Below, one piece after another: positions 4,606 to 56,681 of a stretch of 64,000 bases of DNA. The stretch spans positions 1 to 64,000 of the forward strand of contig JAKSZP010000204.1 of NCBI GenBank assembly GCA_022478985.1, in the 5' to 3' direction. The stretch's first letter is position 1. Every line of letters begins with the position of its first letter. This DNA is from Massospora cicadina. Taxonomy: Eukaryota; Entomophthoromycota; Entomophthoromycetes; Entomophthorales; Entomophthoraceae. A program made the position numbers and the translations under genes. The notes under the pieces are model-generated. The model made no database searches. It was not told where the DNA came from and worked only from the letters and a program-made list of their open reading frames with translations.

Positions 4606-4929
4606 AGGAAAAAAGATCTTTTTTATTTTAACCGAGGCAAGCTGACCAGGGGACAGGCATTACCAAAAGATAGAAATGAATGACATGAAATCTGAACAGG
4701 GTCAACTCCATCGAAGAAAGTTTTTCCACCTCCAGATTGTGACTCTAATTTTTCTGGTTATGTCATGGGTAAGGTTTTCATGTTATTAGACCTACTAACC
4801 ACCAATAGCTTCCTTTGGCTGGCACCCCAATTGATGTATGAAGGGTGGGAATCGAACCCACAACCTTCAGGTTGGTAGCTGTACGCCCTTACTGACTCGC
4901 CTTCCACCCCCAGGAAAAAAGATCTTTTT
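4606..4929. repeat. 18-bp target-site duplications of the SINE
   Basis: AGGAAAAAAGATCTTTTT occurs at 4606-4623 and again at 4912-4929, identical over 18 bases and bracketing the SINE. Length and A/T bias fit target-primed reverse transcription by a LINE. Confidence 0.97.
4624..4911 (-). mobile_element. tRNA-derived SINE with LINE-type 3' tail (288 bp)
   Basis: Read on the minus strand it starts with a tRNA-like head: a GGGGGTG acceptor-like start, a weak A box, then a perfect B box GGTTCGATTCC at 4858-4848, the internal promoter for RNA polymerase III. A unique body of about 150 bases follows. The 3' end (4663-4634) carries CCCCTGGTCAGCTTGCCTC and an A/T-rich tail (AAAATA). That 3' motif is shared with elements E1, E2, L1 and L2 here. 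It has no protein. Perfect TSDs mean the insertion is young relative to its neighbours. It depends on a LINE for movement. Confidence 0.92.
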
Positions 4930-5494
4930 CTAGAGAAAGCTGCACTATCCTACTTGGAATTTACTTGACAAGCCTGTGAGCCTCTGTCAGTATTTGTTAC
5001 TACTGTATGCTTCCTTGATTTTTAATAAAAACCCTATTACTGTATAAGGTTTTCAAAAATATTATTATAAAGGTTGCTGTCCTCATACAGTACCTTATAA
5101 TATTGGTATATTGATATGTGTACTTATAATGACTCCCTAATGCTAATTTTAACATAACGGTTACTTTGTATACTCTGACCTCTGTTCAGGCCCACCAGAC
5201 CTAGATATCACGCCTTAGAGACTAAAGAGAAGTACAGATTTTATCTTTTCATACTGAAAGGGCCTTCAGCACACCAAGAATGAATTCTACAAGTGACGTG
5301 TTGATGAGGTAGAATGTTGTTTTGGGAAAATATATTAGCATGTAGAAAGAGGCTTTTTAAAATGAAGCTCCCCTATAATGCCTCTACTTAAATCCGGTAT
5401 CCTTTAAGAGGTTGTCACTAGAGAGCTCTTAGACAATGAGAAAATAATTCTGATGATAACCACTTTTGATGCCACTTATTAATCCTATTGATTC
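4930..5494. other. Non-genic AT-rich stretch, probably part of element N
   Basis: No convincing reading frame is seen. By the TSD logic for E1, this DNA was once continuous with 13342 onward, so its right part should be the upstream region of plus-strand gypsy element N (gag end or leader). That is an inference; I could not recognise gag motifs. Confidence 0.4.
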
Positions 5495-5659
5495 TTATAT
5501 TTCTTATCTTATATTTGAGGTAAGCTGACTAGGGGACAGACATTACTGAAACAAAAAACTAAAAACTAATGTAACTAATTGATTTAAATAAAACCCCAAA
5601 ATGAGCGTATTGAATGATACACACCAAACAAAAACAAACAACCAGGTGGGGCAGCGGAA

Positions 5660-6543
5660 AACTGCAAATTTAACCATGGCGGAAGGGGAGGGGGATTGGG
5701 GGGGTTAATATTTGACAGCAGATTCCTAATTCCAGAGTAGGGCATGTGTCAAGGCGGAGAGCAAAGGCGTCAGGGCATCAGTGGAATGTGATTTGATATC
5801 ACTATTGATTAGTATCTCATAGAATTTGCCAGCTATAAAATTTGGCGCTGATGTATTTGGCTAAATACCTTTTGGATTTAATGAGGGCTTCTGGTAGTTT
5901 GATGAACGTGGCAATATTGGTTCAGGTAATTTTAGCTTTAGGATTTTGTGCTGCAGTTACCACGTTCTGTACAGCGTTATTGACATTTTTGTGTAATTGA
6001 TTCACTGTAATCTTACTTTTTGGGGTGAGTGTTGAGGGGATAACAGGTGGGGGAATTACTCCTGTGAACATCGCCACTGATTTGATGACAGCTTTGCGGA
6101 GGGGGTGACAATCTGGCGTGGCAGCTGCTTTGACTGCAAGCTGGTGGTCACTGCAAAATGGTTCGGCATTAGGCTGTGGGGCATATAAATGAGGGTGTAA
6201 CTGGCATCCCATTCAGCATTAATGAAATTCTCAATTTGAAGATAGGGTTCTTTAATGAGATTACCTGATTAGTCATTTTCAGCCAATGACTCACATGGGT
6301 TCTGGTTGAATTAATTGGGGAATCAGCGTATGGTTGATATTTGTTGCAGCATTGGAGGAAGCATGGGATTGAACAGGGGTCCAAGCTGGTGCTTGATTGG
6401 AGGAATCATGTGTGGCACTGGGGAGAAAAGGATGCTGATTGGTATCTGAAGGTGCAGCTGCAGCAACAGGCTTTGGGGGAGGTGAAGGTAGGATTGTACC
6501 CCATAACAAAACTGGCGCAGGGTGGGCGGTGGATTATAAAGAG
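5660..6543 (-). pseudogene. E1 ORF1-like protein, C-terminal half
   Basis: This half starts at the D insertion and matches the middle and C-terminus of the E2 protein: ILPSPPPKPVAAAAPS parallels ILPPPPPKPDATSASA, and QLHKNVNNAVQNVVTAAQ parallels the E2 segment before FQPKEKV. The final segment is rich in Pro and acidic residues and ends near the AAPPG-type C-terminus. Several frameshifts and stops are present. Function is inferred only from its pairing with the zinc-knuckle half at 12471-13277. Confidence 0.65.
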
Positions 6544-7382
6544 TGTCTATAACTCTCCTGTTCCCAGCCTGGAAAGGCTCGGTGCACGGGCCCAGCCAGG
6601 GAACTAGATGTTAGTACAAAAAGTTACTAGAGCCCAGCAGAGGGTGCTGGAGCAATAAAAACTTAATTATAGAAGTGCGATCTTCATATCCAAAACCCAA
6701 CCAAATAATAACTCAGTGCATAGGGTTAGAAGGGGTAGGCACACCAGGTTGGAGATAACCTGGGTGACCCAGAGGTGCACGGGGGATAATTTAATTGTAT
6801 TCAAAATGGAATGGTTTATGTAGCGTGAGACCTCCTTGAAGAGGTCCACGCACAGGGTCGTTCAAGGTAACCTAAGCAAAAGATGGGAAAAACGTGAATT
6901 TTTTATTATAAGAAGACGACCAACAAGGAATGTTGGTTGCAGAAAATATAATCAAACTTACCCGGTAAAATTTGGATCCTGCCAAAATAGTCACAAGCAC
7001 TGATCCACCAATAGCCAAAGAATACCATCCAAATTGGTATAAAACACTGAAAATGACATTCACTCAAGTAATCGATTGAAGTTGGATCTGACCCAAATGC
7101 ATGGTTTTATAAATGGAATGGGCTAAAAAACCCCATTCCTCTAACCAAATCAAACCGTCTGCATTAATTTAGTATACCATCCGTTTTAACGCCTGGGCCA
7201 ATGTAAGGGGCTGGGCATTAGGCACCTCACTTGTACCAACCTGAGCATACTTGGCTTAACCCAGCGTTAGTCTACTGTGTGCCTGAGGTCAGAAAGGGCC
7301 TGAAGCTTTACCTTCTGGGCCTCCTGTCGCCCAGCCTTATCCTTAGGGTTGGTCCCCACTATGATGTCATTTAACCATTAAA
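6544..7382 (-). mobile_element. 3' LTR of chromovirus D
   Basis: This 0.84-kb segment is repeated at 11639-12470. Both start TGTCTATAACTCTCC on the plus strand and end around CCATTAAA / CCATGACA. A PPT lies immediately to its right, which marks it as the 3' LTR of a minus-strand element. Confidence 0.9.
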
Positions 7383-7397
7383 TTACCCTCTCCTCCT
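7383..7397 (-). other. Polypurine tract of D
   Basis: Minus strand AGGAGGAGAGGGTAA lies directly upstream of the 3' LTR and would prime plus-strand DNA synthesis. Confidence 0.75.
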
Positions 7398-7419
7398 AAC
7401 GGGGCTCAACCCCCCCTCC

Positions 7420-8890
7420 AGGGGCTTGCACAAGGGAAAAGTTCTTGTGGTCTGGGGCCAACCTCATGGCGACAACGGTCAGTTTGGGTTGAGATCCAGC
7501 AGCCTGGGGGAAACGCTTGTGGAAGGCTTCAATCAGATCTTGGCCATGCACACAGTCACGCGCTGGAACCCAACTATTCTCTGCAGCGTCAAAACCCTTC
7601 CAGGGTACCAGTACTCAAGTTTTCTTTAACTTGTCGGGAGGCGACTATTTCTTCTACTTCCCACTCTGCCCCATCCCCGAGATAGGCCTCAGGAGTCTCT
7701 GGTGGGGGCCCTCAAACAACATCAATTTGCTCTCATGGAAGACAGAGAAGATCTGAAATGAAGAGGGAAGATCTAGCTGGTATGAGGCATGGCCCATCTT
7801 TCTAACCACACGGTAAGGGCTAATCCTCTTTAGTCCCAGCTTCTTGCATGGCTGTTTGATAGGGATGTTACGAGCATCAAGCATCACGAGACCCCCTTCC
7901 TTATACGCTGGACCCACTCAGCGCTTACCATCAGCATTCTCCTTATAAACATGCATTGCCGCCTCCAAACTTGTGGAAAACCCATGGTGGACATCCTTTA
8001 TAGTCTTGACAAAGTCCACCACCGCTTCACCCTTAGAACCACAGCTGGGTCTATGTTAAAGGCGGGGTTAAAGCCATGGTTGGAGAAAAAAGAGAAACAA
8101 CTGATAGAAGAATGAAAAGTGTTGGTGTAACTGAATTGGGCCATAGGGAGTTGAAAACCCAATCTGAATGATCTGCGGCGGTGTTTACCGCAGAAACTGT
8201 TCTAAGCACTAGTTCACTAGATCAGTCTGCCCATCTGATTGGGGGTGATAGTCAGTCAAATGGCAGGGGCGATTCTGAAGAGTATTACACAAGTCTTTCC
8301 AAAAGATAGAGGTAAATTGGCGTCCCCAGTCACTGATAATCTCTTGGTTACCCATTTAGTGCAAACACATGCGTGACAAAAGCCTAACCATCTCAGCCGC
8401 GGTTATTGTAGTTCCGCAAGGAATGAAGTGGGCGAACTTCGTAAAATGGTCCTCCACCACCATGATGGCATCATAACCATCAGAGACAGGTAGTACCAGA
8501 ATGAAATCCACCAATAGGGAAGTTCAGGGCCCTTTGGTTTTTTTGGACTGGTACCAACAACCCCTCTAAAGGTTGACGATTTAGTTTCATTTGGTTGCAG
8601 ATCAAGCACTCTTTGCAATACCGTGCCACCTAAGCAGGCAAGCATTTCCAATTGTAGTTGCGTCGTACTAACTCCAAGGCCTTTGCTATACCAGGATGAC
8701 TGACGATGAGTCCATCATGAGTTCCCAGATGATTTCCAGGCGCAGTGGTCCAGCAGGAACCCATAGGCGCCCCTGAAACCACACCATCTCATCCTTCACG
8801 TGATAACCCCTGGATAGATCCTCTTGATTCAAAGCGCTCTTCGCAAGTAGCATAGTATATTCAGCTGATAGCAGCTGAGTAAGGACCACC
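7420..8890 (-). pseudogene. Chromovirus D integrase with chromodomain
   Basis: The N-terminal HHCC zinc domain is seen near 8720-8590 (SHPGIAKALELVRRNYNW, then CKECLIC). The DDE core follows in another frame: VDFILVLPVSDGYDAIM, IISDWGRQFTS and YHPQSDGQTDLVN. The third catalytic residue reads D instead of E. At 7917-7654 comes the C-terminal domain (LDARNIPIKQPCKKL, YQLDLPSSFQIFSVFH). It runs into a chromodomain read across two frames: EWEVEEIVASRQVKE, then FDAAENSWVPARD and LIEAFHKRFPQAAG. The chromodomain would steer integration to modified histones. Frameshifts make it inactive. Confidence 0.85.
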
Positions 8891-9600
8891 TTTATGAACT
8901 TACTTTATTCCTCCAAATTTTCCAGAGGTGCAAGCACTGGCCCAATGGCCAAGGGAGAGGAAGTTGAGACACCCTTTTATTTAAAGGTATCATCACCTGT
9001 GTGTTATGGACTTCTACCTTCTTTGAATCAGGAGCTAAAGCAGGGTTGCAGCTTAACGCATCTGCCAAACCATTATCCTTACCCAAGGTGAATTCGTAAG
9101 AAAAGGCAAATTGGCCTAGGGTCTCATGCCAACGGGTCTGCCGTGGGGTTAGGACATGAGGGGCTCAGTAGTACAGCAAGTCATGGTGATCTGTACGTAC
9201 ATGAAACAGCTGGGTAGAGCCATGCAAGTGGTGACGCCAATAAGTCAGCGCCTCCACCATTGCTAGTAGCTCCTTGTCATAAACAGCGTAATTCAACTCA
9301 GGAAGAGACATTTTTTAAAAAATATCCCAACAGATGCTCTATCTCATCTTCGCCTACTTGTAACAAGGCAGCTGCTATGGCAAAGTTGGAGGCATCAGTA
9401 GATACAATGAAATTCTTTAAAGGGTTGACATGGCGAAGAACGGACGTGGACAACATGGTGCACTTCACTTCTTGGAAAGCATCCTCCAAAATGGGGGACC
9501 ACTGAAGCACCTTGGCACCGCTAGCCTTGTATAAGGGAGCTGGCATCTCAGAAAGATTAACTTGAACTTCTTGAGGAATGGACACGTCCCCAAAAACTCC
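8890..9600 (-). pseudogene. Chromovirus D RNase H
   Basis: The minus strand at 9585-9298 shows FIVSTDASNFAIAAALLQVG, containing the first catalytic Asp of the RNase H that removes the RNA template. The end of the domain appears near 9086-9030 as KDNGLADALSCNPAL. Between them the frame is disrupted. It follows RT and precedes integrase as usual in Ty3/gypsy. Confidence 0.78.
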
Positions 9601-10390
9601 TCAATACATTGACTGAAGAGGGTATGACCACTCAAAAATAGCCTTTTCCTATCTGGAGTTATCATGTGTCCTTGGTCAAACATGGCGTTGCCCAGAAAAG
9701 TGACCTGGGACTTAAAAGTTCACATTTTCTGATTTTTAATGTAAGGCAGGCAGCCCTCAATCTCTCTTCCACTTGCCAAAGGTGTTTTTCATGGGACTCC
9801 TGATCAGGGGAAAACACCAGGATATCATCCAAGTAAGCAACTGCGCATACCCCAACAAGTCCCCCAACTCAGCATTAATGCGGCGTTGAAAGATGACAGG
9901 GGCATTCTTAAGCCTAAAGTCTTACCCAAAACTGGAAAATTACTTTTTCTGGTACAGAATGTGGTTAACCACACCTGGCCCTTCTTTACTCGGATCTGAT
10001 TGACCGCATTGAGGCAATCCAGCTTGGAGAAGACCTTCACCTTATCCACATAGCGCACAATATGTGAATCCAAAGGGATGGGATGGAGGTCTGATACAGT
10101 AGCGTTGTTGAGGTTCCCATAATCTACGCATGGGCATAAAGTACCATCAGCCTTCTCAACAAAGAGAAGGGGGTAGCAAACAGGGGAGGTCCGCTGAAAA
10201 TCGCACCTTTAGCTAACTGCTCCTTCACCCATACACTTAACGCCTCTTCCTCCCAGATGGTCAAGAGGTAAATGGGAGAAGAAATATGCACCAGATCCAC
10301 AGTGAGTTTGAAATCACAGTCATACTCAGAATGATCAGGTAGTGCGTTAGCAGATGTTGCATCAAAGGAAGATTCCAAACCCTCCAAACA
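9600..10390 (-). pseudogene. Chromovirus D reverse transcriptase
   Basis: Upstream part at 10340-10124: ALPDHSEYDCDFKLTVDL, LAKGAI and LFATPF. Middle part at 10073-9890: KVFSKLDCLNAVNQIRVKKG. The catalytic box AVAYLDDILVFSPDQES is intact, YLDD at 9835-9824, followed by a long open stretch. Family-typical length is covered, but at least two frameshifts break the frame. Confidence 0.87.
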
Positions 10391-10860
10391 AGAAGTTAAG
10401 GGAACCACCACAGTGGGCTTCAGCATAGAGGCAGTGCTAAGGGTGTGAAGGTGGGGCCAATGGGGCAATTCTCCCTGAACGTTAGCCTCAGACAAAGAAC
10501 AACTAGTGTGCAACCATTCTTTAATGTTAGGGAGATGGTATTTTCTTTCAAGTTGGTTAAAACATCAAACTTCCGCCACCACTCCACTCCCAAAATGATA
10601 GGAAACAAGAGGTTTTTGACAGCCTGGAAGTGATAAAACAAGTGGTATTTTCTACCAGATAGTCCACTGTCCCCATAATCCTAAGAGTGGGCATACCTTG
10701 GGACGCCCCTCCCGTAATCTTATCAACTGGCAAGTAACTCAGCTTAAGGTAGTCAGCTAGGCTTTGGTCCATAAGCCATTAGAGGCGCCAGTATCCACCA
10801 GTACAGTGGTTCTGAATTTTTCTAATGGGGATGAAAGGGTAGCAGTAAGTAGAAAAAACA
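10390..10860 (-). pseudogene. Chromovirus D aspartic protease
   Basis: TTVLVDTGASNG gives an intact D-T-G (10795-10787). The second half follows at 10641-10520 with FPIILGVEWWRKFDV and ENTISLTLKNG. A frameshift lies between them. It would cleave the polyprotein. Confidence 0.82.
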
Positions 10861-10899
10861 CTAATGGTCTTGATTTCTAGCAGACAGCGCCAGAACATT

Positions 10900-11600
10900 A
10901 CCAACAAACTCTTCATCTGGCATTAGCACACCATCAGGGTATGTTTTGGAATCATAGAACGGGGAAAATAATTGGCCACTCTTACTACTGAGGCCACATA
11001 ACCCACCATGTCTTCTGAAGGTGCATAAACTTTATCATATTTAATACAAAGTTCTTTCCCCACTTCTTGAGTGCTACGAATCATGCTAGGGGTCAAACGA
11101 GGGTTCTCAGGGGTTATTTTTTATACTGGAATAGCGTACTCATCCAGGCCATAAAAGCTAATAAATGGCTCAGAGGTTTGGATAAGTTTTTCGTCATAAA
11201 ACGCGTTTTTAGACGTGAACAACCCTATTCCCCTAACCGCAATGGAATGCCTGACATTATCCAAGGCAACACCCCCATGCCCAGCTGCGCCAATTCTGCC
11301 ATCATCATCTAAAACGTGCTGTCAAAGTAAAACTCGTTTATTTAAATTGAAATTGGTAATCTTGGTGGAAAGTTGGGAAATCACAAATTTTGGACACAGA
11401 AGCATCCATATCCACTGGGTACGAGCATGAAGGGTGGGTACTTTCCAGTTGGATGCAGCCATAATCATGCCGAAATGCTCTAACCTGCAGAAAAAAGAGG
11501 AAACAGCAGTGCGGCTGACCACTGCTGAAGCCCACAGCTGGCACACACCTTTTACTCTTTGGAAAAGTCCCACATTGAAATATTTTGTGCACATAAAAAT
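10900..11600 (-). pseudogene. Chromovirus D gag region, unidentified
   Basis: Between the 5' LTR and protease only about 0.75 kb is available, short for a gag gene. A mostly open minus-strand stretch from about 11310 to 10930 reads through DNVRHSIAVRGIGLFTSKN and SEPFISFYGLDEYAIPV. I do not recognise capsid motifs or a clear zinc knuckle. Gag is either divergent or partly deleted. Confidence 0.35.
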
Positions 11601-11632
11601 AAAAGGTTAGTAACTAATGTAAGGAGAGTGTC

Positions 11633-11653
11633 TATAACTCTCCTGTTCTCAGC
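11633..11653 (-). promoter_or_regulatory. Hairpin across LTR/PBS boundary of D
   Basis: GGAGAG, nine bases, CTCTCC forms a 6-bp stem that spans the LTR edge and the position where a PBS should be. The related LTR at 53182 has GGAGCG...CGCTCC at the same place, a compensatory base-pair change. No TGG-type tRNA PBS is present, so the structure may take part in self-priming. Confidence 0.55.
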
Positions 11654-12470
11654 ATGGAAGGGCTCGGCGCACAGGACCCATGCCAGGGAAATAACCATTA
11701 GTACAAAAGTTACTGGAGCCCAGAAGAGGGTGCTGGAGCAATAAAAATTTAATTATAGAAGTGCGATCTCCATATCCAAAACCCAACAAAAAACAACTCA
11801 GTGCACAGCGTTAGAAGGGGTATGCACTCCAGGTTGGAGGGAACCTGGTTGACCCAGCGGTGCACAGGGGTATAATTTAATCATAATCAAAATGTGATGG
11901 TTTACGTAGTGCAAATCTCCTCAAAGAGGTCCACGCACAGGATCATTTGAGGTAACATAAGCAAAAAACGGAAAAAAGGGGGATTTTTTATTATAAAAAA
12001 GTCGACCAACAAGCAATGTTGGTCGCGGAAAACATAATTAAACTTCGTCAGGGAAATTCAGAGTCTGTGAAAATGGTCATGAGCACCAATCCACCAATAG
12101 GCAAAGGCTACCATCCAAATTGGTAGAAAACACCAAAACCAACTTCACTTGACTAAATGATTGTAGTTGAATCTGACCCAAATGCATGATTCCATAAATG
12201 ATACGGGTTTAAAAACACTGTTCCCATCTAATTGAATTGAATTGTAAGCGTTAGTTGAGTATACCATCCATTTTAATGCCTGGGCCGATGTAAGGGGCGG
12301 GGCATTAGTCACCTAACTAGTAATAACCTGGGCATACAAGGCTTGTACCTAGCGTTGGTCTACTGTGTGCCTGAGGTCAGGAAGGGCCTGAAGCTTTACC
12401 TTTTGGGCCTCTTGTCGCTCAGCCTTATCCTTAGGGTTGGTCCCCACTATCATGTCATTTAACCATGACA
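11639..12470 (-). mobile_element. 5' LTR of chromovirus D
   Basis: This is the second copy of the 0.83-kb LTR at 6544-7382. The two are similar from end to end but differ at many single positions, so insertion is not very recent. It carries the transcription start for D on the minus strand, though no TATA box was assigned. Confidence 0.9.
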
Positions 12471-13277
12471 TGGATTTTAACCAGCAGAAAAAAGTCAGAG
12501 CCTTTGGAAGCAGCTAATGAAGGGCACTTGCATTTTGAATGGTCCAACTCAAAACAGGATGGACAGATAATCCGCCCACCCTCGATGCAGGCCCATAACG
12601 GATGGTCAGGGGCAGAAGGAATGATGGCATGAGGGGCAATTGACAAGGCAATTTCATTATATTCAGGGCTGATTGTGGCATACACCCGAGGCCCAGCGAC
12701 GCGTGTGGCCCATTTTGGGACCACAAATTGTAAGATGAGGCTGTAGCAAAAGGCTGCTAAACCATCCATCAGCTCCTGGTGGAGCACCACAGGGGGGAGG
12801 TGGATGGGCAAACCAGCAAACTGAACCACCAAAGTGGTACTGCTAGGAGATAGGTCTGAATTGTGGGGAGAGGGGTACCCTGGAATACCAGGGGCACAGT
12901 TGCCACAGTGGCGGCGCCAGCTTCACAGGTGAAGGTGAGATTGATTTAACCCTATTAGGGTCAGAAATCTTTAAAACTGGCGGGAGTCATCACCACCTGA
13001 GCCATTTCAATAATGGCTGGTCATGTTAAGGGAAAGGTTTCCCATAGTTGACCCTAAGGCCAAAACTCATGTTGCTCTGGGGGAGAACCAGTGGTCAAAG
13101 AAGTACTGCTTGGGTTCAAGTGAGGTAAATGTCAAGATCCTTGGGAGGAACGAATTGCCCAGGGTTTGGTATGACTGGGTGAGCCAGTACAAGCGCGTTT
13201 TTCATCTGGACAAAAAACAGTTGGGGAGTTTCGCCGCTGCCCCACACTAGAGCAGCGGGTGGAGAATCTGAGGACAT
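12471..13277 (-). pseudogene. E1 ORF1-like protein, N-terminal half with zinc knuckle
   Basis: The start codon is probably at 13277 (MSSDSPPAALVWGSGETP, matching MSTAPPPAAPVWGSGKTP in E2). A conserved block GQFVPPKDLDIYLT follows. A long region, open at 12832-12455, ends in ICPSCFELDHSKCKCP, a perfect C-x2-C-x4-H-x4-C zinc knuckle (about 12566-12530), as in LINE ORF1 and gag proteins that coat RNA. Chromovirus D interrupts the frame just after it. Several frameshifts occur in the middle. Confidence 0.75.
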
Positions 13278-13380
13278 CAGAGCAAAACTATGGCAGGCAA
13301 TCAAAATTTGCTTGGAAAGTTATGACAAGTGTAAAGAGAGTTTATGTTTCTTAACTTACTGCCCCTAATATGATAGTCTA

Positions 13381-13760: not shown

Positions 13761-13849
13761 ACTTGTTATTGTAGATTAAGAATAGGACTAATCAGCTTAG
13801 CTACTAAATATGAGGGCTGTGCATAATATTACTGCCTTGTGTAGTTGAT

Positions 13850-14270: not shown

Positions 14271-14299
14271 TTAATCTATTCTCCACATGAAGATCTGAC

Positions 14300-15716: not shown

Positions 15717-17135
15717 TGTCAGGGAGATGTTAGATAAGGTTTAGACTGGCCTGGCAGTTGGGTTTCAGAAGCACTCAAAAAGTGCTTTAGAATTCCAGAG
15801 GCATTGCCGCTTGGACAACGTTTAAATTAGCTGTTAAATGAAGTTCAATGGAGTGCTGACAGGCTGCAATTATAGCAAACAAACTTGGCAAAGAGCCAAG
15901 ACGTTGCATCCACAAGGCTAATGGACCTGGGCATCATGAGTTGAAAGATCAGGGAAAACGTCAATAAGGTCTTGACATAATAGGCCTAATTGCCTCTGGA
16001 AAGAATTATTGTTAACAACATGACTGGGACAACCAGTCAATATGTGGGCTGTAAGGCCACATTGCTTATGTCATAGGAGTTTGATAAAAGAAAATTTTGA
16101 GCTTTATTAGGTAGATTTGACGTAGAGAGATCTTTATTGAAAGTAAAAGAAGAATATTTGACTGTCAATTTCCTCATTATGCTACAGCTTCTTACATAGA
16201 CAATCATTTTGGGGAATAGCCTAGGAAAGCAAGGATCAGGGTTCTCATGACTCAACCTAACCCAGCAAACTTTGAGCGAGGGAGAAGGAAAAAAAACTTA
16301 ATTAAACTGAAAATAAAAGAGTTGGCAGCAGGCCAAATGGCTGTCAGTTTGGCCTCAAAAGCCCAAATTGCAGTTCTATTGCAGCTTTTATGGTTAGTGC
16401 AAAAGCGTCTTACCAAACGGGCAACAGGAATCTCCCAAGGCTACCCTATGTAGGGTCAGTCCCAAGAGATTAGGAATGGGTTTGGGGTGCCCAACCCACC
16501 TGCACCCAGTCACTTTGGCTTACCGTTGATTAAGTAGGATGCATAAGCATAGATCTTGATATTTTTGTAAAGGTTTCTGAGCTGGCAGCGACTGTAAATG
16601 ATTTCCCCGAGCCATATAAAAGTTCCACCAAAGATTTGACATTAGGCTCATTTTTCTTAGAAGGTAAAGCCTGTTGGGCTTTTTTCTTAATAACTCTGGG
16701 GCATATTTCAAACTGGCAATGACATTTCCCAATGGCCCAATGCCATTGTCGAGTTTTGCTGAGGATTTGACACTTGACATTCCCTTTACAAAATTAAGCT
16801 CCTGTCAGGCTTAAAATGCTGAGGGCCTGAGCTCTAAGCCTTTGTTTCTTGGGTTAATTGCCATCAACTTCATGAGGTCCTTTTGCACCATGGGATGCCA
16901 ATTTTTCATTATTTTAGTGCAAATTTCCTCAATTCGCCTGAATATTTTGGCAGAAGTAAATGTGAGGACAGGTGACGGGATCTTCAAAGGGAGAGCTGTT
17001 ATCCATCACTCATCTACCACATGGACGAGGCCGCCCTGTGAGCCTAGAGGGAAAGATGCCCTTATCAAACCCTTTTTTGCGGGGAACAGGAACACCACCT
17101 GGTCCAAGCAGAGGGGACGCTCCCCCAGACTTACA
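15717..17135 (-). mobile_element. 3' LTR of chromovirus C (1.42 kb)
   Basis: It starts TGTCAGG and ends TTACA on the plus strand. It is repeated at 20974-22387 and, as a solo copy, at 50775-51935. A pyrimidine run on plus follows at 17136-17152 (PPT on minus). Some stretches look coding in all three copies (for example GLTLHRVALGDS-type readings), but they are simply conserved LTR sequence. Confidence 0.88.
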
Positions 17136-17152
17136 TTACCCTTTCCTTTTGC
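17136..17152 (-). other. Polypurine tract of C
   Basis: On the minus strand this is a run of mainly purines (AGGCAAAAGGAAAGGGTAA type) directly upstream of the 3' LTR. Confidence 0.7.
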
Positions 17153-20973: not shown

Positions 20974-22387
20974 AGTCAGGGGGGCGGCAAATAAAGTTTG
21001 GACTAATCTGCCAGTTGGGTTGCAGAAGCACCCAAAAGGCGAACCAGAATGCAATAGGCATTGTCGCATGGATAATGTAAAAATATCTGGTAAATGATTA
21101 GCAATGGAATACTGGCAGGATGTAATTATAACAAATAACCTAGCAAAGGGCCAAGCTTTTGCAGCCTCAAAGCCAATGGACCTGGACTTCAGGAGTTTCG
21201 AAATCTGAGCAAAAATTTCACTGTGGACTTGACATGATAGTCATAGTGCCTCTATATAGAATTTTTCTAACAACATGGATTGGATTCAGTTAAAACGTGG
21301 GCTATGAGGCCACATCTCTGATGGCACGAGGTTTGGTAAAGGAAATTTTCGCTTTTAATTAAAAAGTTTAGCTGCGTGAAGAATTTTATTGAAAGTAAAA
21401 TAAGAAAATTGACTTTTAATTTCCTCAGTGTGTTACAACTGCTTACATAGACAATCAACTTGGGGAGTAGCTTAAAAAAGCGTGAAATAAGGGCCCTCAA
21501 GGCTCGACCTAACCTGGCAAACTTAAAGCAAGGGTAGGAGGAAAATGAGCTTAGTTTGAACTGACTTCAAAAAGAGTCAGCGGAGGATCAAGTCACTTTC
21601 AGTAAGTCCTTGTATACCGAAATTTTAGTTCTAATGCACTTTTGACTATTAGCACAATGGCGTCTCGCTCATTAGGCAATGGGAACCTTCAAGGCCACCC
21701 CAAACAGGGGTGGTCCCAAGAGGTTGTAAACAGGTTTGGGGTTCCCAGCCCACCTGCACTCGGTCACTTTGGCGTCCATTTGACCAAGCGAGATTCATTG
21801 AATAAAACTTTGATATTTGTGAGGAGGGTTCCAAGCTGGTGGCGACTTTCAATGATCGCCCCAAGCCATTGTTGAGTTTAACTTAAAATTTGACAATTAG
21901 GCACATTCTTAAGAAGGTACACGCTTTTCTCGCCTTGTTCCAGATAATTTTGGGGCGGATTTCAAAACCAGCTACAACATTTCCCAATGGCCAATGCCAT
22001 TGGCAAGTTTTGCTGAGGATTTGACACTTGACACCCCCTTTACCAAACATACTGACTGTTAGCCTTATATTGCCGAGGGTTTAGGGCTCTTGGATCTTAC
22101 ATTTGAGGGCTCATTACCATAAACTTCATGAGAACCTTTTTCCCAATGGGGATGCCAACTTTCTTATATTTGGAAAAAATTTCCGAAGTTTTCATGACTG
22201 ATTTGGCAAAATTAAATGTGGGGACAGGTGCGGGATCTCACGGGGAGAGCTGTTACCCATCGCTCATCTACCACATAATGAAGTCACCTTGTGAGATGAG
22301 AGGGGCAGCTGCCCTTCTTGGACCTTTTTTTTAGGGAATGGGAACGCCACCAGTTACAAGCAGAGTGGATGCTCCCTCAGAATTACA
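20974..22387 (-). mobile_element. 5' LTR of chromovirus C
   Basis: This is the second LTR copy, aligning along its length with 15717-17135. The expected PBS side (just left of 20974) shows no TGG-type tRNA complement. Confidence 0.88.
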
Positions 22388-22483
22388 CAACCCAGGTTAA
22401 TGGGGAGCCATTCCAGCATTTTGCTCAAAGCAGGTTGTGACCCCTATTTGAGGATTCCCCCAATAAAGGGAGAATCCTAAAAA

Positions 22484-25628: not shown

Positions 25629-25633
25629 GAGCT

Positions 25634-27900: not shown

Positions 27901-28580
27901 CTTTCTCCACCTATGTGTTGTGAAATATTGTGCTATAATCTTCTTTACTAGTTCATCTTCATCATCCCACGCATCAGGAGTCATTAGGAGGTTATGCAAC
28001 CTCTCAACTTCACTAAAGTTAAGGTGGAGGACAGGCAGACGCGTTAACCCATCAACATCAAATGGCGTATCTCTGCTCAATGCTTAATGGTCATATCATA
28101 GTGCTGGAGCTTTAGAGCCCAGCGAGCCAACCGCCCTTAGGGTCTTTATATTTGTAATATTTTAAAGAAGCGTGGTTAGTAATTACTTTAAATGCCATCC
28201 CATATAGGAAAGGGAGGTAGTGTTCAACAGCGAGCAGGACTTCAAAACAATTTTTCTCAATGACTTTGTAATTGCGCTCAGCCGTCAAAAGCATTTTATT
28301 AAAATTAGACATGGGATGATCAACCCCATTTTTATCCAATTGAGCTAAGATAGCTCTAACGTCATAATCAGAGGCATCCGTGAATAACATGAAGGGCTTG
28401 CCATAGTCAGGGTGGCGAAGTATTGGCATTTTTTGCAATATCTTCTTTAAAGTAACATACACAGCCTTTTCTTTAGCACCCCAATAGAAAGGGGTTTTTC
28501 TAGCCAGGAGGCGGACAAGGGGCTCTCTGAGTTGAGCAAATTTTCTTATAAATTGATGGTAGTACCCCATTATGCCCAAG
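27900..28580 (-). pseudogene. Element B RNase H
   Basis: A 155-codon open stretch (28579-28112) contains MGYYHQFIRKFAQLREPLVR, then HPDYGKPFMLFTDASDYDV and HPMSNFNKMLLTAERNY, with LYGMAFKVITNHASLKYY. The normal TDH is TNH here. It is followed by SRDTPFDVDGLTRLPV, the linker to integrase. This is the longest intact piece of B. Confidence 0.9.
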
Positions 28581-34393: not shown

Positions 34394-34415
34394 AAACCAA
34401 ATAGCTTAAGTGGTT
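34394..34415. repeat. Left TSD of LINE L1
   Basis: The 22 bases AAACCAAATAGCTTAAGTGG plus TT match 39617-39638 except at three positions. All three differences are transitions (C/T, G/A, G/A). Confidence 0.9.
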
Positions 34416-34652
34416 TTTCTCTCTCATTACAAACACTTTTGCAACATATTCAATTTAAGTCTAGGTAAGTTTGATAATCTTATCGAGGTGAAAATGTGCA
34501 CCCAATGTCAAGTAGCAGTTGGGCGAGTAAAGTTAAGGGCACAGGTTAGGCCCCACATCACTCAAGTTTCATAAACGCCCCAGAGAATCTGGCAGCATAA
34601 ATAAAGTTAATAGTAAAAAACCGGCAGTTAGCATTTCCCCAGAAATTTTGGC

Positions 34653-35896
34653 TTGGAAAGTGCACTGCAACCAGTTATTCAATATGCCGCACTCCCAAAC
34701 ATTATTGTCTGTGGAACATGTGGTGCATGTCTTCCTGGATATTCAACAAACGGTGCTTTAAGAGATATTTGTGGAGATGTACACACATTTATCAAATGCA
34801 GTGTATGTCACACCACACTCCACGCCTTGCAGTTAGATGGATCTAAGTTTTAAAAGCAAAAATGCAGAGGATGAAGCCACAAAAGTGCAATTGGGTAGTG
34901 GACCTCCAATACAGTCAACGGGTAGCCAAAATGAAGTGCACTTGCTGGACTAAATCGAACCAAATTTTCATAACTTTTGACTTCCTACCTACTACAGTCA
35001 AGCGCACCATGCTGGACGCCACCTGAAGGCTGGGCTCGCCAAATATGGGGAAATCTAATCCTTTGAGATTTAGTACCTTACGCTTAATCTGGACCTGTGC
35101 ACGGGCAAATAAATTGCTGTTTCACCTATCTGTGGGAATAGTGGAAGATTTGACCCAAATTCCTCATACTGCTTTTGTAGAAATTAATAGGCAAGACTCC
35201 CACCCATTCAGGGTCACTGTGGATAGTGCACCTCCTATCAGCACTTTCTGTCGCACTTTTGGCCACAAGGCCCATACCTGCCCTGCCAAGGAGGGCATTA
35301 CTCAAACCAAGATAATCCCAGAAGCAATGTGTGGTGCAGACACCCACTAAGAACTGGCAGTAGACACTGATGCAGCCTTTCCGTGGGGCATGCCAGTGTG
35401 CTACATTCAAGTAAAACCTGTGTCCTCACAGGAGCATAAGAAGGCCAAGCAGGCCCACAAGGCGGTGGAAAAGGAGGTGGCAAAGACCGCGTTTGTGATC
35501 CCACCCACCCAGATCCAGGAGGACATTGAGTCAATCATGGTGAAAGTGGCTCATAAATCCTTCCACCAATCATATTGGGCCACCCAAGCTGAAGACCCAA
35601 TGGGTGAGTCAGTTTCACCTGAACAATGCTACCAAGCATCTATTGTAACCAAGTCGCTCACCAATATTCCTGCCAAAATTTAACCTTCATGCGATGTTGC
35701 ACCATAAGTGCACACAACGCCAAAAATTCGTCCCACAGTGGGGAAAAATAAGAAGGCAAAACCCAACGTGCACCCTACAGCTAAAGCTTCCCATACTGAA
35801 CCATACTCCATAGCACAGAATACCTGCACTGCCATACAGCGATGTGCTGAAAAAGATAAGGCTGAAGGGTTTGAGTGCCCTTCCCCTCGCACCTAA
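34653..35896 (+). pseudogene. LINE L1 ORF1 (nucleic-acid-binding protein)
   Basis: The start is MESALQPVIQYAALPN. A Cys-rich segment follows (IVCGTCGACLPGY, then KCSVCHTTLHALQLDG), conserved in part in L2. A middle region (34860-35200) lies in a second frame with DLTQIPHTAFVEINRQ and HPFRVTVDS. A zinc knuckle lies at 35250-35282 (FCRTFGHKAHTCP) whose first Cys is now Ser. It ends FECPSPRT with TAA at 35894-35896. ORF1 proteins coat LINE RNA in the transposition particle. At least two frameshifts and one stop are present. Confidence 0.8.
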
Positions 35897-35902
35897 GGTG
35901 CA

Positions 35903-38900
35903 ATGGGGTAACCTTTACTTTAGGGACGTTGAACATCGCTGGACTCAAGACCTTGCCATCCCGGGCTAGAAAACTGAGTCTTTTGGAGAATAATTTACCT
36001 GTGGACATCCTGGCCATTCAGGAAACCCACTGTCCACGCGGTGCAGAGGAAACTTGTGCAACCATGCTCCTCCCTTCACTTTCCTTTTGGTCAACGCACT
36101 GTGGGGTGCTTGTTCAAGTGACCCATAGAACTAAATTTATTTTGTCAACATTCTACCTTGATGGCCACATCCTTATAGTCACCTTTTTTGGGATGACAAA
36201 GTGCACGCTGTTGTTAACATTTACGCCCCAACCTGTGCACAAGATCGTCAGGAATTCTTCTTAGCCATCAAAAGCCTTCCACTACCACCGACCTGTTTGT
36301 TGTTTATGACAAGAACTGCTGGACAAACTCAACCACAGACCGCTGGCCCTTGTCACCTAAACCCCCATAGGGCACATTAAACTTCGTGTTCTAAAAGCCA
36401 CCCTAGGGTTGTTCAATACTCTGCCTCGTCATGCACCACTACTCACTAACATGTCTCGCCAATGTGCAAAACGGCCAGCTAAGGTTCATGGTCCACATTG
36501 ACCTTATTCTTGCGCTGTTGAAATTTCAATCCCAAATTTTCCATTTTACCATGAAAAAAATGATTTATCTGACCACAGAATGGTATTTGTTTCCTTCTGT
36601 TTGTCTAATCCAGCAGCCCAGGCACCAAAGTGGTGCAAACTATGACCTCAGCTCTGTAGTTTACCACACCATTATGTGTAGACCCAATCTCCACCTGGTC
36701 AACCTTCAAAGTGAACACCATCTTCCAGGCTCACCACATCTCATCACGTTGCTCGCAGGATGCCTTGGCAGTCATTTTTTGCATGCTGGCAGAAGTGGGC
36801 CACCTGAAGTCTAACGTCCTTTCTTCAGGCTACATCCCAGCTTGGGGTTGCAAGTGGACGAAGTGTACACTCACCTCAATGCACTGGTAAAACAACACAA
36901 GTATTGGGTTTGTGTTCAGTATATAGCAAAGCATATAACAGTAGGCAATATGCGGTCTACTTACACTTTTAGAAATTCTTTGCACTGCGCCAGAGCTTGG
37001 CCTGCACACAGGTGTGAGGGCCAGACCACTCCGTCGCAGATACGCTGGCTGAAGTGTCAATCAAATTACACAACTATTACTCTGAATTTCATTGCTCTGA
37101 TCCAGTTCTACCAGCTGAAGTGAAAAATTTTCTCAGAAGTGCAAATATCCACATCATTTCCTGTTTTCCATAGTTGATGAATTTGATTACTCGGGATGAA
37201 CTCTGGTCTGCCATTTGTGGTGCACCATACAGGAAATGCCCAGGTCCAGATGGCATCCCTTATGTGTTCTATAAGAGGTATTTCAAATATTTTTCCTCCT
37301 TGCTGCTTGCCTATATGAACCAATGCCTTATGGAAACGCGACTCCTTCCCGGAGGGAAAGAGGCCTTCATGATAACGTTGTCAAGAAAGGGGATAAGATG
37401 GACTTGGCCAACTGTCGCCCCATTTCTCTAACAAACACGGATACAAAAATTTTTGCTAAAATCATGGATAACCGTCTAGGGATTGTTGCCTCTGCTACCA
37501 TCTCACCCAGAACAATTTTGTTTCATACCCAGAAGGTCGATTTGGGACAAAGTGCACTCTGTGGCTAACGCCTGTCATTCCACGGCTTCTGGGGCACTTG
37601 TATTTTTGGAACAGCAGAAGGCCTATGATAGAGTAAACTTGGAATACCTCAAGGCCTGCCTCCGCCAATTCCGCCTTCCCCCACGTTTCATCAGTTGGGT
37701 GATGCTGATGACTGAATCTGCGACAATGACAGTGCGTGGCTCTGGATTTCTCACGGATTTAGTTCGCCCTCAAAGGGGCCTACGCCTAGGAGACCCTCTA
37801 AGACCACTCTTGTATAACTTCAGCCTTGACCCACTTCTTTGAAATGTAATTGCCCGCTTTACTGGTGCCCATGTGCAAGGCCAAACACCAGTCAAGATTT
37901 TGGCGTTTTCTGATGATTGTTTTGTTGGGGTGTCTAACAATCATGATTCATGGGCGCTTGAAGCTACTATCCAGGTTTACTCCATGGTATGTAATGCAGC
38001 ACTTAACGCTTCCAAAACCAAAATTTTTCTTTTTGGTCAGTATCAAGCCAGCTGATCCCCAGCGCCCCATTTTCTACCTGCTTCACAAACTTGCAAACGG
38101 GATCTCTTTCCCTGCCAAACCCACACTGCCCCGCTTGTGCTTCCCTTTGTGCCAAGCACCACAGTTGGCCCTGTCCGCCATTTTTGGGTGTGGCTGGAGG
38201 CGGGAGGGTACGCCTCAATGGTGATGAAAACCATATCCTAGACAACGTTACGAAATTCATAGCTTCCCTCAAAGCCCATCAGACCTCCCTTACAGGCAGA
38301 GTAGTGCTAGCCAACTCTATGCTCCTATCTAAAGTTTGGTTTGGGGCCACGCCTTCACAATTTTCCCCTTATTTCTTCAAGTCATTATACACTCTTCTTC
38401 AAGGGTGGCTTTGGTTAGGCCGCCAACCATTAGTGCGCTTGGATGTCATGTTTGGCCCTCGCCATAGTGGTGGCACTGGCCTGCTCAACTATGAGGTCCA
38501 CGCCGCCAAATTTCTTAGCACCTGGATCTCTGCAGCCACCAACCCTATGATCTCAGCTCAGCACTGGTCCTGCGCGGCCTTCTCCAACTTCTCCCACGCC
38601 ATGGCCATACTAATCCTGCCCAACCCATTCTCTGTTAAAGTTTCTCGCCTCACATCCTTCTGCTGCGGGACCACATGGGACGTCGCCCCACTTCAATAGG
38701 ATTCTCCTCTCCATGCGGATCGCTGAGTGTAGAATTCGCATCAGTGGGCACACTGCCCAAAGGGGGCTTCCTGCTCCTCGGTTCACCCAGGAAATACAAG
38801 GACTACCCATACTGAACGTAGTGAAACCCATGAGGTCCCCTACCATAGCCAGGGTGGACTATCTGGATATGTTGGACATCCCCTACTCCATAGATTCCCA

Positions 38901-39495
38901 GAAAGCCATATGGAAGTACGCCCACCACCCTCTTCTGCAGCTTCATATTTGTTCCCATGTGTAGCCCTGCTTGAGAAGGGTATATCATACTGCCAAGCGT
39001 TCTAACACTTTGCGCTCATCTTGCGTCATGTGTGGCCAGTATGAATGATGGTTCACCGCCTGGAAGAGTGCCCTCCTCAAAAGCGATATGGCGTGATGTA
39101 AAGCATCTATTTCGCCAGGATTAGGCACAGCCCTTCAGCCTGTCTAAGGACATCTTTGCTTTGTCCATGGTTTCCCCTCTACCACCTTCCCTCCATGCCT
39201 TAGTGGTTGCAATTGGTATGTGGACCACCCACACAATTGTCTTGGATGCTATCTCAGGATCCACTCCCACCCTCCAGGAAGTTATAAACCCGTTCCAGTC
39301 GCACATTTTGGACCACTTTCAGGCGGGGATGTTTGGGTACCTCTCACCCTGTCACCGCCAGATGGTCTGATCCTGGTTTCAGGTTTGGTTGATTGCTTCA
39401 GACCCCTTCCTACATATGTGCTCAATAGTAGCGCAAGCCCCTACACCAATAACCCCCTTCCTTCTCTTGGCGTTCCCAATGGCAACAAGAGATAG
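35903..39495 (+). pseudogene. LINE L1 ORF2: APE endonuclease and reverse transcriptase
   Basis: The ancestral ATG at 35903 is six bases after the ORF1 stop but is followed by a shortened G run that breaks the frame. The endonuclease shows TLNIAGLKTLPSRARKL and VDILAIQETHCPRG (catalytic Glu in QETH). RT shows KCPGPDGIPYVFYKRYF, ANCRPISLTNTDTKIFAK, QKAYDRVNLEYL, RPQRGLRLGDPL and the intact catalytic FSDD in KILAFSDDCFVG. A C-terminal region with a CxxC (SSCVMCGQ) ends GVPNGNKR. Frameshifts are spread throughout. No RNase H domain is recognised. Confidence 0.9.
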
Positions 39496-39558
39496 CATTT
39501 ACTTCTCTGGGGTGCAATCCTCTCGCTGAGTTCATTTTGTTAGTTTAGTTTACTTATT

Positions 39559-39589
39559 GGAAGTGTCCATCCTCTGGTTCGCCTTCTCC
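39559..39589 (+). repeat. Shared 3'-end motif, L1 copy
   Basis: GGAAGTGTCCATCCTCTGGT continues into TCGCCTTCTCC. It is homologous to motifs at the 3' ends of L2, E1, E2 and the SINE. Confidence 0.88.
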
Positions 39590-39638
39590 AAATAAAATTC
39601 AAAATTTAAAATTCAAAAATCAAATAGCTTAAATGATT

Positions 39639-40826: not shown

Positions 40827-40859
40827 GTAAGAACCTCATTGTTTAATTTAACTTATTGC

Positions 40860-40890
40860 GGGGAAGGCTGACCATGGGACGGACACTTCC
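40860..40890 (-). repeat. Shared 3'-end motif, L2 copy
   Basis: The minus strand reads GTGTCCGTCCCATGGTCAGC followed by CTTCCCC, parallel to the 3' ends of L1, E1, E2 and the SINE. Confidence 0.9.
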
Positions 40891-44605: not shown

Positions 44606-44611
44606 TGCACC

Positions 44612-45860: not shown

Positions 45861-46025
45861 CCGCGGGCCTTCCACCTGCTCCTCTTACCTTGCTCGCTCA
45901 ACTGCTCCCTGACATGGGCGCAGACTAATCTCCTCTGTGACATTATCAAACTAGATTCAGACTTGGATTGAATAGGTTGCAAAAGTGATTGCAACGAGAA
46001 AGAAAAATTTTAAGAATCTCATTAT

Positions 46026-46116: not shown

Positions 46117-46117
46117 A

Positions 46118-47340: not shown

Positions 47341-47345
47341 GAGCT

Positions 47346-48680: not shown

Positions 48681-48686
48681 AGAAAG

Positions 48687-49270: not shown

Positions 49271-49299
49271 TTCAGGGATGATGACCAACTTGATGCCTT

Positions 49300-50727: not shown

Positions 50728-50745
50728 CCTCTATAGTGAGTACCA
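50728..50745 (-). other. Primer-binding site of fragment O
   Basis: Minus strand TGGTACTCACTATAGAGG, the A/B/H primer site with four transition-type changes. The LTR of this element begins about two bases to the right and is cut 28 bases later by solo LTR P. Confidence 0.7.
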
Positions 50746-50774
50746 TTATGGTTGCTTGGCAAATACTCACTTCT

Positions 50775-51935: not shown

Positions 51936-51940
51936 CTTCT

Positions 51941-52500: not shown

Positions 52501-52503
52501 CAC

Positions 52504-53150: not shown

Positions 53151-53181
53151 TAATAAATTTTAAACGAACATGTTAGGAGCG

Positions 53182-54731: not shown

Positions 54732-54747
54732 CTAATATACATATTTT
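54732..54747. repeat. Left TSD of E2
   Basis: CTAATATACATATTTT is identical to 56666-56681, a perfect 16-bp duplication. Confidence 0.95.
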
Positions 54748-54759
54748 ATTTTATTTTAT

Positions 54760-54789
54760 GAGGTAAGCTGATCAGGGGATGGACATTGC
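54760..54789 (-). repeat. Shared 3'-end motif, E2 copy
   Basis: The minus strand reads GTCCATCCCCTGATCAGC followed by TTACCTC. Confidence 0.92.
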
Positions 54790-54890
54790 TGAATCTCAAA
54801 GTACAAAAAATATGAATGAACAGACCTTCCTGAACAGAATGTGTTGATTACCCAAAAAAGTGAGCAAAACACAAATCAATGAGATCACAA

Positions 54891-56576
54891 CTAACCAGGT
54901 GGGACAGCGGCGAGCCACGCATCCCCACATGGCGGAAGAGGAAGGGGGTTAGGGGACTCATCCTCAGATTCCTCAACGTCCAAAGAGTGAGCCAAGACAG
55001 AGAGCAAGGGCGTGGGGCTATCAGTGATATGCAGGAGGAGATCTCGGAGGACCTGTTGGTCATAGAAAGTTCTATCATTGAAAATTAAACCTACATATTT
55101 GGACAAGCATTTCTTTTCTTGAATGTGGATGACAGAAAGTTGGGAAGTATAAGTGGCACTAGCACGGGTAACTTTTTCTTTTGGTTGGAAAGTGGCAACC
55201 ACTTCCTGAATGGCCTACGTGGCGTTGTTATGCAACCAGATAATGGTTTTTTGTTATGCAGGGTTCAGCTGGGGGCAAAGGTGTGAAGGGAGAGACCTTT
55301 GTCAAGCATTTTTGCTTTGTGGGCAACAGCATGGCAGAGGAACTCTTTTTCAGGTTGGACAGCAATTGCCACAGCAAACTGGTTTTGGTAGAAAATACAT
55401 TGTCATTTGGCTGTGGGGCATAAAAGCACCAGGGATCGCAGTGGGAAAATGTGTAGGTAGAAATTCCCTCATGCTAACATCGGAGTCTTCAATAACATTA
55501 CTTGATTTGTCAGTTTCATCTAATGAGGACCATGGGTTCATGTCATATAATTCTGCATTTTTCTCAATAAGGATGGCTGAGGCTGGCGATTGCTTTGGGG
55601 CTCAGGATCAAACTATTGTCCAAGCTGCTACCTGATTGGTGGGAACATTGGTGGCACCAGACTTAGGATGGGCCTGATTTGCAGCTGCGGATGCAGAAGT
55701 GGCATCAGGTTTGGGAGGAGGGGGAGGTAGGATAGCACCCCATTCCCAAATGGCTGTGAGGTGTTTGGTGAATGGGTAGTGAGCAGTCAAGCCTCCAGAG
55801 GTTGCAGAACTTGTGAGGCAGAGGCAACTACGCTTTGAGTGATCCAACTTGAAGCAGGTTCAACATATGGTTCACCTGCCCTCAACTTGGGACCAGAATG
55901 AGTGGTCAGGGGCAGAGGCTTTGAAGAAGTGGGGTAATCTACTCAGCGACGTTATTTCATTTAGGGCTGATTTTGGAAAATACTTGAGGCCCAGCGAGGC
56001 GTGTGGCTCCATTAGGGACCACAAATTGAACAATGGGGTCATTATCATATACTGCCAAACCTGCCATCAGCTCTTGATGGAGTACCGCAGGGGGAGGTGA
56101 TTGGGCAACTCAGCAAACCTAACCACCAACGTGGAGTCAGCGGGAAGCTGGGTGCATCTGGTGGGAATTGGGGTGCCCTCAAAAATAAGGGACACAGTTG
56201 CTGCAGTGACAGCATCAGCTTTGCAAGTGATGCCAAGGACAAAGTGCCCCTTATATGGGTGGAAAATGATAACCCCAGCAGGTTGCATCACCGCCTGGGC
56301 TACTTCAATGATGGCTTTGTCTGCTTATGGTAACAATTTCCCATATTCGACCCAAAGGCCAAAATGCATGTTAGAGTGGGGAAGTACCAGAGGGCAGTGG
56401 GGCACTTCCTGGAGCATGCAAGGTGGATTGCAAGATCCTTGGGTGGAACAAACTGACCTAAGGACTTATTAGGACTGGACAAACCAGTCTGAGCATTTTC
56501 TCACTGGGAAGAAAACGCTGGATGGGGTTTTGCCGCTGCCCCACACAGGAGCAGCAGGCGGTGGGGCTGTGGACAT
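54891..56576 (-). pseudogene. E2 ORF1-like protein with zinc knuckle
   Basis: The start MSTAPPPAAPVWGSGKTP is at 56576. GQFVPPKDLAIHLA follows, then a folded-looking domain at 56290-56067 (KGHFVLGITCKADAVTAATV, LVVRFAELPNHLPLRYS). The zinc knuckle C-x2-C-x4-H-x4-C (about 55872-55826, TCFKLDHSKRSC) has an in-frame TGA between its first two Cys. A Pro/Ala-rich linker (ILPPPPPKPDATSASA) and a C-terminal part (55202-54891) ending in SLDVEESEDESPNPLPLPPC and AAVPPG complete it. About 560 codons, with a few shifts and stops. Confidence 0.78.
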
Positions 56577-56681
56577 CAGGAGTCAGTGTAACGGCTAATT
56601 TGGCTAGCTATTCCGTTTTGTAAATTTTAATTATCACAAAAGTGACCTTGAGCGGAAAGAAAGCCCTAATATACATATTTT

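Follow-up and report, generated by a model that had tools for sequence, protein, structure and literature searches.

Within a stretch of 64,000 nucleotides (the window) at the start of contig JAKSZP010000204.1 of the entomophthoralean fungus Massospora cicadina, five insertions carry a common 3′ motif: two long interspersed nuclear elements (LINEs; copies L1 and L2, ~5.2 kb), two elements of ~1.9 kb devoid of reverse transcriptase (RT) (E1 and E2, family E) and one tRNA-like short interspersed nuclear element (SINE). Here, three non-LTR families probably depend on the same kind of machinery for target-primed reverse transcription. They have a terminal tail in common, are multicopy, occur as full-length and 5′-shortened copies and are flanked by target-site duplications (TSDs); E is free of endonuclease (EN) and RT, and its open reading frame 1 (ORF1) is remotely homologous to that of the LINE.

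The assembly containing the window comprises 1,469,884,898 bases, and the genome is described as 92.4% repeats, with 56.8% Ty3 elements and 6.3% L1 LINEs (PMC11105155). All five insertions were found where a reading of the sequence alone had placed them. Each has its own TSD of 13-18 bp, and after each tail site follows an A/T-rich stretch and then the TSD (Table 1). E1 stood as a tail-bearing element with a corrected extent, from ~13341 down to 5512, split by a nested element with long terminal repeats (LTRs). The latter is probably of the Ty3 type, its LTRs (6540-7378 and 11625-12466) being 83% identical. The five 5′ TSDs begin, at the bar, in TAG|AAAAAG, CAG|TAAGTT, ATC|AAAATA, TAG|AAACCA and TAT|AATGAG; such A-rich starts are what a single endonuclease might leave, five sites being too few for a consensus.

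The shared tail

The tails were compared by means of a 33-base weight matrix. In leave-one-out tests, a matrix from four tails was scored on both strands of the window; the left-out tail reached 27-38 bits in each of the five tests, ranking right after the training four, and the best score in simulated windows (20 per test) was 14.5-18.1 bits. A consensus scan with up to three mismatches gave five matches in the window versus 0.81 expected. Four of them were these elements and one was weak and unrelated; the tail of LINE copy L1 was not recovered at this threshold.

For the rest of the genome, 20 stretches of 10 kb (200 kb) out of seven long contigs were sampled and scanned with a matrix whose seed consisted of the window's five tails and another five from E copies. 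Above 20 bits, the sample contains 12 tails, where three simulations gave 0, 0 and 0, and each of the 12 terminates a member of the three families (5 E, 6 LINE, 1 SINE). A thirteenth tail (L056:2087, 19.8 bits) is located at a LINE end and was included in the tail-column comparison and the end classification, and a site of 13.6 bits (L051:3573) was left without class. The sequence-only reading had considered that the likeness might be restricted to the copies in the window; tails were instead present on many genomic copies, and E, LINE and SINE copies elsewhere in the genome make the three families multicopy on one tail, as it had proposed.

Two LINE-like RTs of the sample, L043:1810-6100 (-) and L060:5111-5786 (+), are without the shared tail, and the tail is therefore not general to LINE-like RTs here. 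Both are distant relatives, with best identities to L1/L2 of 33% (L043, with a weak ORF1 match of 24%) and 30% (L060) in tblastn. It is very improbable that the tails resemble each other by chance, or that a host-wide signal, e.g. an mRNA 3′ signal, was acquired by unrelated elements. Although the motif is short (31-33 nt), the sample tails above 20 bits without exception end one of the three families and the two other LINE-like RTs are without it; chance was rejected on the leave-one-out scores and on the sample tails against the simulations. Fourteen bacterial sites matching the tail pattern in genome_contigs were taken as chance, no expectation having been computed. In viral_contigs, the tail pattern had 0 matches, and neither the LINE RT nor E, each used as a query, had a relative.

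The LINE and SINE families

The LINE copies L1 (5208 bp as cut) and L2 (5170 bp as cut) are 73% identical. Their RTs matched the Pfam family RVT_1 with E-values of 1.2e-11 and 1.5e-15, and among solved structures the best matches were LINE-1 ORF2 proteins (~1e-9), followed by R2; judged from these matches, both RTs are predicted to be of the L1 type. The EN-like stretch matched Exo_endo_phos weakly, below the Pfam cut-off (E-value 0.071), and zf-RVT also remained below it (E-value 0.2); two further pieces were without any match. In protein searches, one protein of Massospora cicadina matched the LINE RT at 66%, and two others matched the LINE ORF1, at 72% and 57%. AlphaFold models of the LINE ORF1, made for two Massospora proteins, were unusable, with a mean predicted local distance difference test score (pLDDT) of 35.6. 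A LINE-type ORF1 precedes EN and RT in both window copies and in all four sample LINEs in which ORF1, EN and RT are in view.

The SINE (286 bp) has a B box, GGTTCGATTCCC, at 4847-4858, exact and in the expected position; with up to one mismatch, this box also turns up in 40 of 100 shuffled windows. Its T-arm matched the transfer-messenger RNA (tmRNA) model (E-value 0.0028), and ARAGORN found no tRNA in it. With the SINE as query, the best 40 of 5463 candidates were scored (its own copy included); they are 92-100% identical, and all 40 matches extend to query base 285 or 286. L047 contains another copy, whose TSD is 15/15 as judged by eye. Between the SINE and E1 there is a match of 47 bases, tail included. 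LINE and SINE have the same 3′ end sequence, as would be expected of a stringent LINE/SINE pair.

Structure and copy number of E

E1 and E2 are colinear over their whole length (1919 and 1921 bp as cut), with 1242 of 1806 aligned bases identical (69%). With the last 301 bp of E2 as query, the best 40 of 1932 candidates were scored (its own copy included) and were 80-100% identical. Fourteen of 20 fetched copies are full length, measuring 1884-1911 bp as projected from alignments that start at E2 base 3 to 60; in five the alignment does not start before E2 base 556, as after 5′ truncation, and one is interrupted. A TSD is clear (at least 9 in automatic scoring) in seven of the 14 full-length copies and not in the other seven; on average, the 14 differ by 18%. 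A recognisable tail terminates 20/20 fetched copies (with a one-base indel in L033 and L042), a count only partly independent because the matrix was seeded with E-copy tails, the 200-kb sample being independent.

This sample contains nine E-type ORF1s, one of them cut by an edge, and a tenth remnant (L047:553) visible at the DNA level only. None of the eight evaluable copies is followed by EN or RT, which agrees with the earlier description of E as an RT-less element, and seven of the eight end in a recognisable tail. E is roughly as frequent as the LINE there, densities being rough as the seven sampled contigs also contain E matches. Three E copies are clustered in L048:51-5456, one of which seemingly inserted near the A/T-rich tail of another; two tails, at 3712 and 3794, are 82 bases apart.

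The sequence-only reading had also allowed for E being a 3′ or internal deletion product of one LINE locus. E proved to be multicopy, and such a single-locus origin, extremely improbable in our view, is ruled out by the copy number: E occurs in two subfamilies, the 22 copies examined include full-length copies with ends in common and with their own TSDs, and the E ORF1 is without nucleotide similarity to the LINE.

The E protein and the LINE ORF1

In DNA comparisons within the window, E had no nucleotide match to the LINEs; frame-by-frame BLASTP of E against the LINEs gave nothing better than an E-value of 0.025, Pfam contained no family for E, and in a database of 5.8 billion proteins there was nothing at an E-value of 1 or below among the best 7995 candidates scored. 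In profile comparison, E and LINE ORF1 aligned with a score of 40.1 versus best decoy scores of 26.3 and 25.6 (two sets of 200 column-shuffled decoys each). In a larger hhalign comparison, with 27 genome copies added on the E side, 8 LINE rows in total and the adjusted E1 as anchor, the score was 44.7 versus 25.7 for the best of 100 decoys (E-value 7e-5), and the alignment ran on the main diagonal (E 108-239 with LINE 108-247). The middle frame of the E protein was chosen partly after its resemblance to the LINE ORF1 had been seen; the unadjusted translation, used as control, still scored 33.8 versus a decoy best of 24.8 (n=200). The E halves before and after the zinc knuckle align at matching positions, with E-values of 0.0018 and 0.0055 (no decoys). 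Judging from these profiles, the protein of E and the LINE ORF1 are remote homologs, with ~20% identity, and the expectation that the families would share no other sequence than the tail does not hold. With an ORF1 homologous to that of the LINE and no ORF2, E can be classified on this evidence as an ORF1-only LINE derivative.

A CX2CX4HX4C knuckle is present in E1 and E2 at the same place as in the Massospora protein P0030, and P0029, another Massospora protein, has the same knuckle with N for H; the stretch is absent in the L2 copy and degenerate in L1. E1 and E2 diverge by 0.308/0.274/0.366 at the three codon positions (p=0.004), which means that E lineages or their parents experienced protein-level selection after the split; among copies of a single subfamily, the signal at codon positions is slight. 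An AlphaFold model of an 85-aa piece of E was unusable (mean pLDDT 44.7). A common 5′ end of E and LINE is not claimed: only E2-L2 stood out (reached by 2/1000 shuffles), the counts per 1000 shuffles being 353 for L1-E1, 311 for L2-E1, 202 for L1-E2 and 863 for E1-E2.

Tail classes and stem-loop

Five fixed columns (3, 5, 25, 27 and 30) separate the window LINE tails from those of the SINE, E1 and E2, and four of them make up the putative stem pairs 3-27 and 5-25. The chance of at least two complete pairs among five random columns is 0.009, before any correction for the structure having been read from the same sequences. Distances between tails are 4-7 within E and SINE, 6 between the window LINEs and 8-13 across; at columns 3, 5 and 27, the E/SINE tails differ from all eight LINE rows compared. 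By these columns the tails are divided into two classes, LINE versus E and SINE, mainly through two predicted stem pairs. Conservation is complete or reaches at least 90% in columns 12-15 and 17-20.

Pairing was counted in 34 tail rows (8 LINE, 26 E/SINE). Excluded beforehand because of small indels were the E copies L033 and L042, the tails of E in L051 and L054 and that of the second E in L055; also excluded were the degraded tail of an E at L047:553 and the LINE L061, whose tail is identical to that of L2. In these rows 83.2% of the cells pair, versus at most 46.2% for slid structures, and the covariation score was reached by 0/500 shuffles, which ignore relatedness. Pair 3-27 is A-U in 8/8 LINE rows and U-A or U-G in 24/26 E/SINE rows. 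For the five window tails, RNAalifold predicted a stem-loop. In zebrafish LINEs, a foreign stem is reported to be tolerated and a foreign loop not, the loop having to match (PMC4176376); by analogy, a near-constant loop with family-specific stem pairs would fit this rule. In those LINEs, stringent ORF2 proteins are reported to contact the tail through the linker region between EN and RT (PMC4176376).

Proposed mechanism and alternatives

In the mechanism that we favour, the LINE (5.2 kb, with ORF1 and an L1-like EN-RT ORF2) would provide the enzyme. The LINE RNA, the 1.9-kb E RNA and the 286-nt SINE RNA would end alike in a 31-nt element, which can be depicted as a GGWA/UWCC stem enclosing a CCR-UCCCM-UGG hairpin, and then in an A/T-rich end. 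Encoded by this LINE or by a closely related sister, the ORF2 protein may bind the 3′ stem-loop, and cDNA synthesis would begin at a nick before an A-rich site, resulting in duplications of 13-18 bp. E and SINE would be mobilised in trans. E may have derived long ago from a LINE of this group via loss of ORF2, and may have kept its ORF1 under protein-level selection while spreading.

Several observations weigh against this proposal. The stem type GGAAG/CTTCC is found in 8/8 LINE tail rows and the GGTAA/TTRCC type of E and SINE in none of them, and because of this the helpers may be other LINEs than those of the window. Pairing fails at 5-25 in 18/34 rows and at 1-29 in 16/34, two of five measures are not above shuffles (number of double-change pairs, reached by 286/500; number of pair types, reached by 179/500), and single window tails fold moderately (z -2.7 to +0.3). 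The common 3′ stem-loop that the sequence-only reading had expected is favoured by the pair counts, but RNAalifold predicted no pair on the 34 rows. A sampled E copy, L048:3949-5456, is without a tail above 12 bits in the stretch examined, and current activity of E is not indicated, since 20/20 fetched copies are decayed (longest ATG ORF 204 codons). Of the earlier proposal, three multicopy families on one tail, with their own TSDs and with E free of RT, are supported, and mobilisation of both SINE and E by one LINE RT is inferred: since E and SINE have a separate class of tail, their helper may belong to a LINE subfamily outside those compared.

There is indeed a real possibility, although not the one we prefer, that the helper is another LINE subfamily, outside the sample, which combines an ORF1 of the E type with a tail of the E/SINE class. 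The window LINEs would then be only cousins, E a plain ORF2-deleted derivative, and the SINE would have taken its tail from that subfamily. The five fixed columns between E/SINE and LINE window tails speak for this, as does the ~20% identity of the two ORF1s, which is expected for descent from another LINE; yet an E-type ORF1 with EN/RT occurs in 0/8 evaluable copies in 200 kb, the best 7995 protein candidates held no E relative whereas the LINE ORF1 found two Massospora proteins, and the RTs of L043 and L060 have no such tail. Rather unlikely is a history in which E, a lineage coding for ORF1, has long been separate from any parent with ORF1 and ORF2, takes only the ORF2 protein from the LINE and has an ORF1 particle of its own that also serves the SINE. 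The very divergent ORF1, the mild constraint on codon positions seen when E1 is compared with E2, the common tail class of E and SINE and the abundance of E in the sample would agree with it; the constraint, however, could date from a LINE parent, there is little codon-position signal among copies of one subfamily, and binding by this ORF1 is putative. Also rather unlikely is that E has been long-lived on ORF1 alone, having evolved an ORF1 protein of its own and, jointly with the SINE, a separate form of the recognition stem, and borrowing ORF2 from a LINE. If true, the trio would represent a division of labour, with ORF2 from the LINE, the ORF1 particle from E and neither from the SINE, and not a LINE with two passive parasites.

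Other features of the window

A 58-bp palindrome (1143-1200) is 90% self-complementary. A direct repeat pair of 1.4 kb (15718-17141 and 20975-22393) is 72% identical, and a retroelement fragment with RT-RNase H is located at 28112-28579 (RT_RNaseH_2, E-value 8e-23).

Table 1 Positions of the three families, their tails and their TSDs in the window
Feature	Position	Strand	Remarks
SINE, full length	4626-4911	-	tRNA-like head, unrelated body, shared tail, A-rich end
SINE tail motif	4632-4664	-	33-base weight matrix
SINE TSD	3′ copy 4606-4623; 5′ copy 4912-4929		18/18
E1, ORF1-only element	5512-13341	-	interrupted by nested LTR element, ~6540-12466
E1 ORF1, decayed	N-terminal half 12524-13277; C-terminal part 6512-5738	-	
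E1 tail motif	5515-5547	-	33-base weight matrix
E1 TSD	3′ copy 5495-5511; 5′ copy 13342-13358		15/17
L1, full-length L1-like LINE copy, decayed	34410-39616	+	ORF1 34505-35893, EN-like stretch, then RT
L1 tail motif	39559-39591	+	33-base weight matrix
L1 TSD	5′ copy 34394-34409; 3′ copy 39617-39632		15/16
L2, full-length LINE copy, same family as L1	40841-46010	-	ORF1 45915-44615; RT piece 42750-41473
L2 tail motif	40858-40890	-	33-base weight matrix
L2 TSD	5′ copy 46011-46023; 3′ copy 40828-40840		12/13
E2, full-length ORF1-only element	54748-56665	-	
E2 ORF1, decayed, ~561 codons	54894-56576	-	CX2CX4HX4C knuckle; remote homolog of LINE ORF1
E2 tail motif	54758-54790	-	33-base weight matrix
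E2 TSD	5′ copy 56666-56681; 3′ copy 54732-54747		16/16

Comparison with known systems

The system would unite stringent LINE/SINE tails with ORF1-only LINE derivatives, and it bears on the reason why ORF1 persists in an RT-less element. Its compact recognition element, with a near-constant loop and changing stem pairs, leads to testable predictions, and names become available for some of the M. cicadina repeats classed as LINE or 'Unknown'.

Stringent pairs of a SINE and a LINE with a common 3′ end, often a stem-loop, are known, e.g. eel UnaL2 and its SINE, and within the L1 clade in green plants and Chlamydomonas (PMC3747384, PMC4176376). These pairs consist of two members, with no ORF1-only element in the descriptions examined; here there are three. 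Among fungi, AfuSINE2-1a of Aspergillus fumigatus is a tRNA-type SINE whose 3′ end resembles the 3′ untranslated region of the LINE I-1_AF; in contrast to our system, that LINE is of the Tad clade, the host is an ascomycete and the description examined mentions no ORF1-only partner (PMC5063351).

As a derivative with ORF1 and without RT, E is similar to TRE5-A.2 of Dictyostelium discoideum, a precedent for mobilisation in trans. TRE5-A.2 is non-autonomous and apparently mobilised by the ORF2 protein of TRE5-A.1, and mobility in trans is reported for a construct resembling TRE5-A.2 that carries ORF1 together with the essential 3′ C-module (PMC5391098). Unlike E, with its ~20% identical ORF1, TRE5-A.2 derives directly from TRE5-A.1; moreover, TRE5-A targets tRNA genes, and the published description examined has no SINE on its tail (PMC5391098).

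E likewise resembles HAL1 (half-L1) of mammals in being a LINE derivative with only ORF1. HAL1 ends in poly(A), and it is recognised by a poly(A)-type 3′ end together with nucleotide-level similarity to its parent LINE. E departs from it in both respects, having a specific 3′ tail motif and no nucleotide match to the LINEs. HAL1 is reported as a non-autonomous L1 derivative coding for ORF1p alone, with several origins (PMC5753468), and mammalian L1 as of the relaxed, poly(A)-recognising type (PMC4176376).

In the open-access literature, outside of which most subscription papers lie, we found neither a LINE, an ORF1-only element and a SINE on one tail nor a description of SINEs or ORF1-only elements in Entomophthorales. 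Each part of the system is known already, and their combination on a single tail, with an ORF1 this divergent, appears to be new within the literature searched. Our best reading is a stringent L1-like LINE system with an ORF1-only partner similar to HAL1 and TRE5-A.2, and with a SINE.

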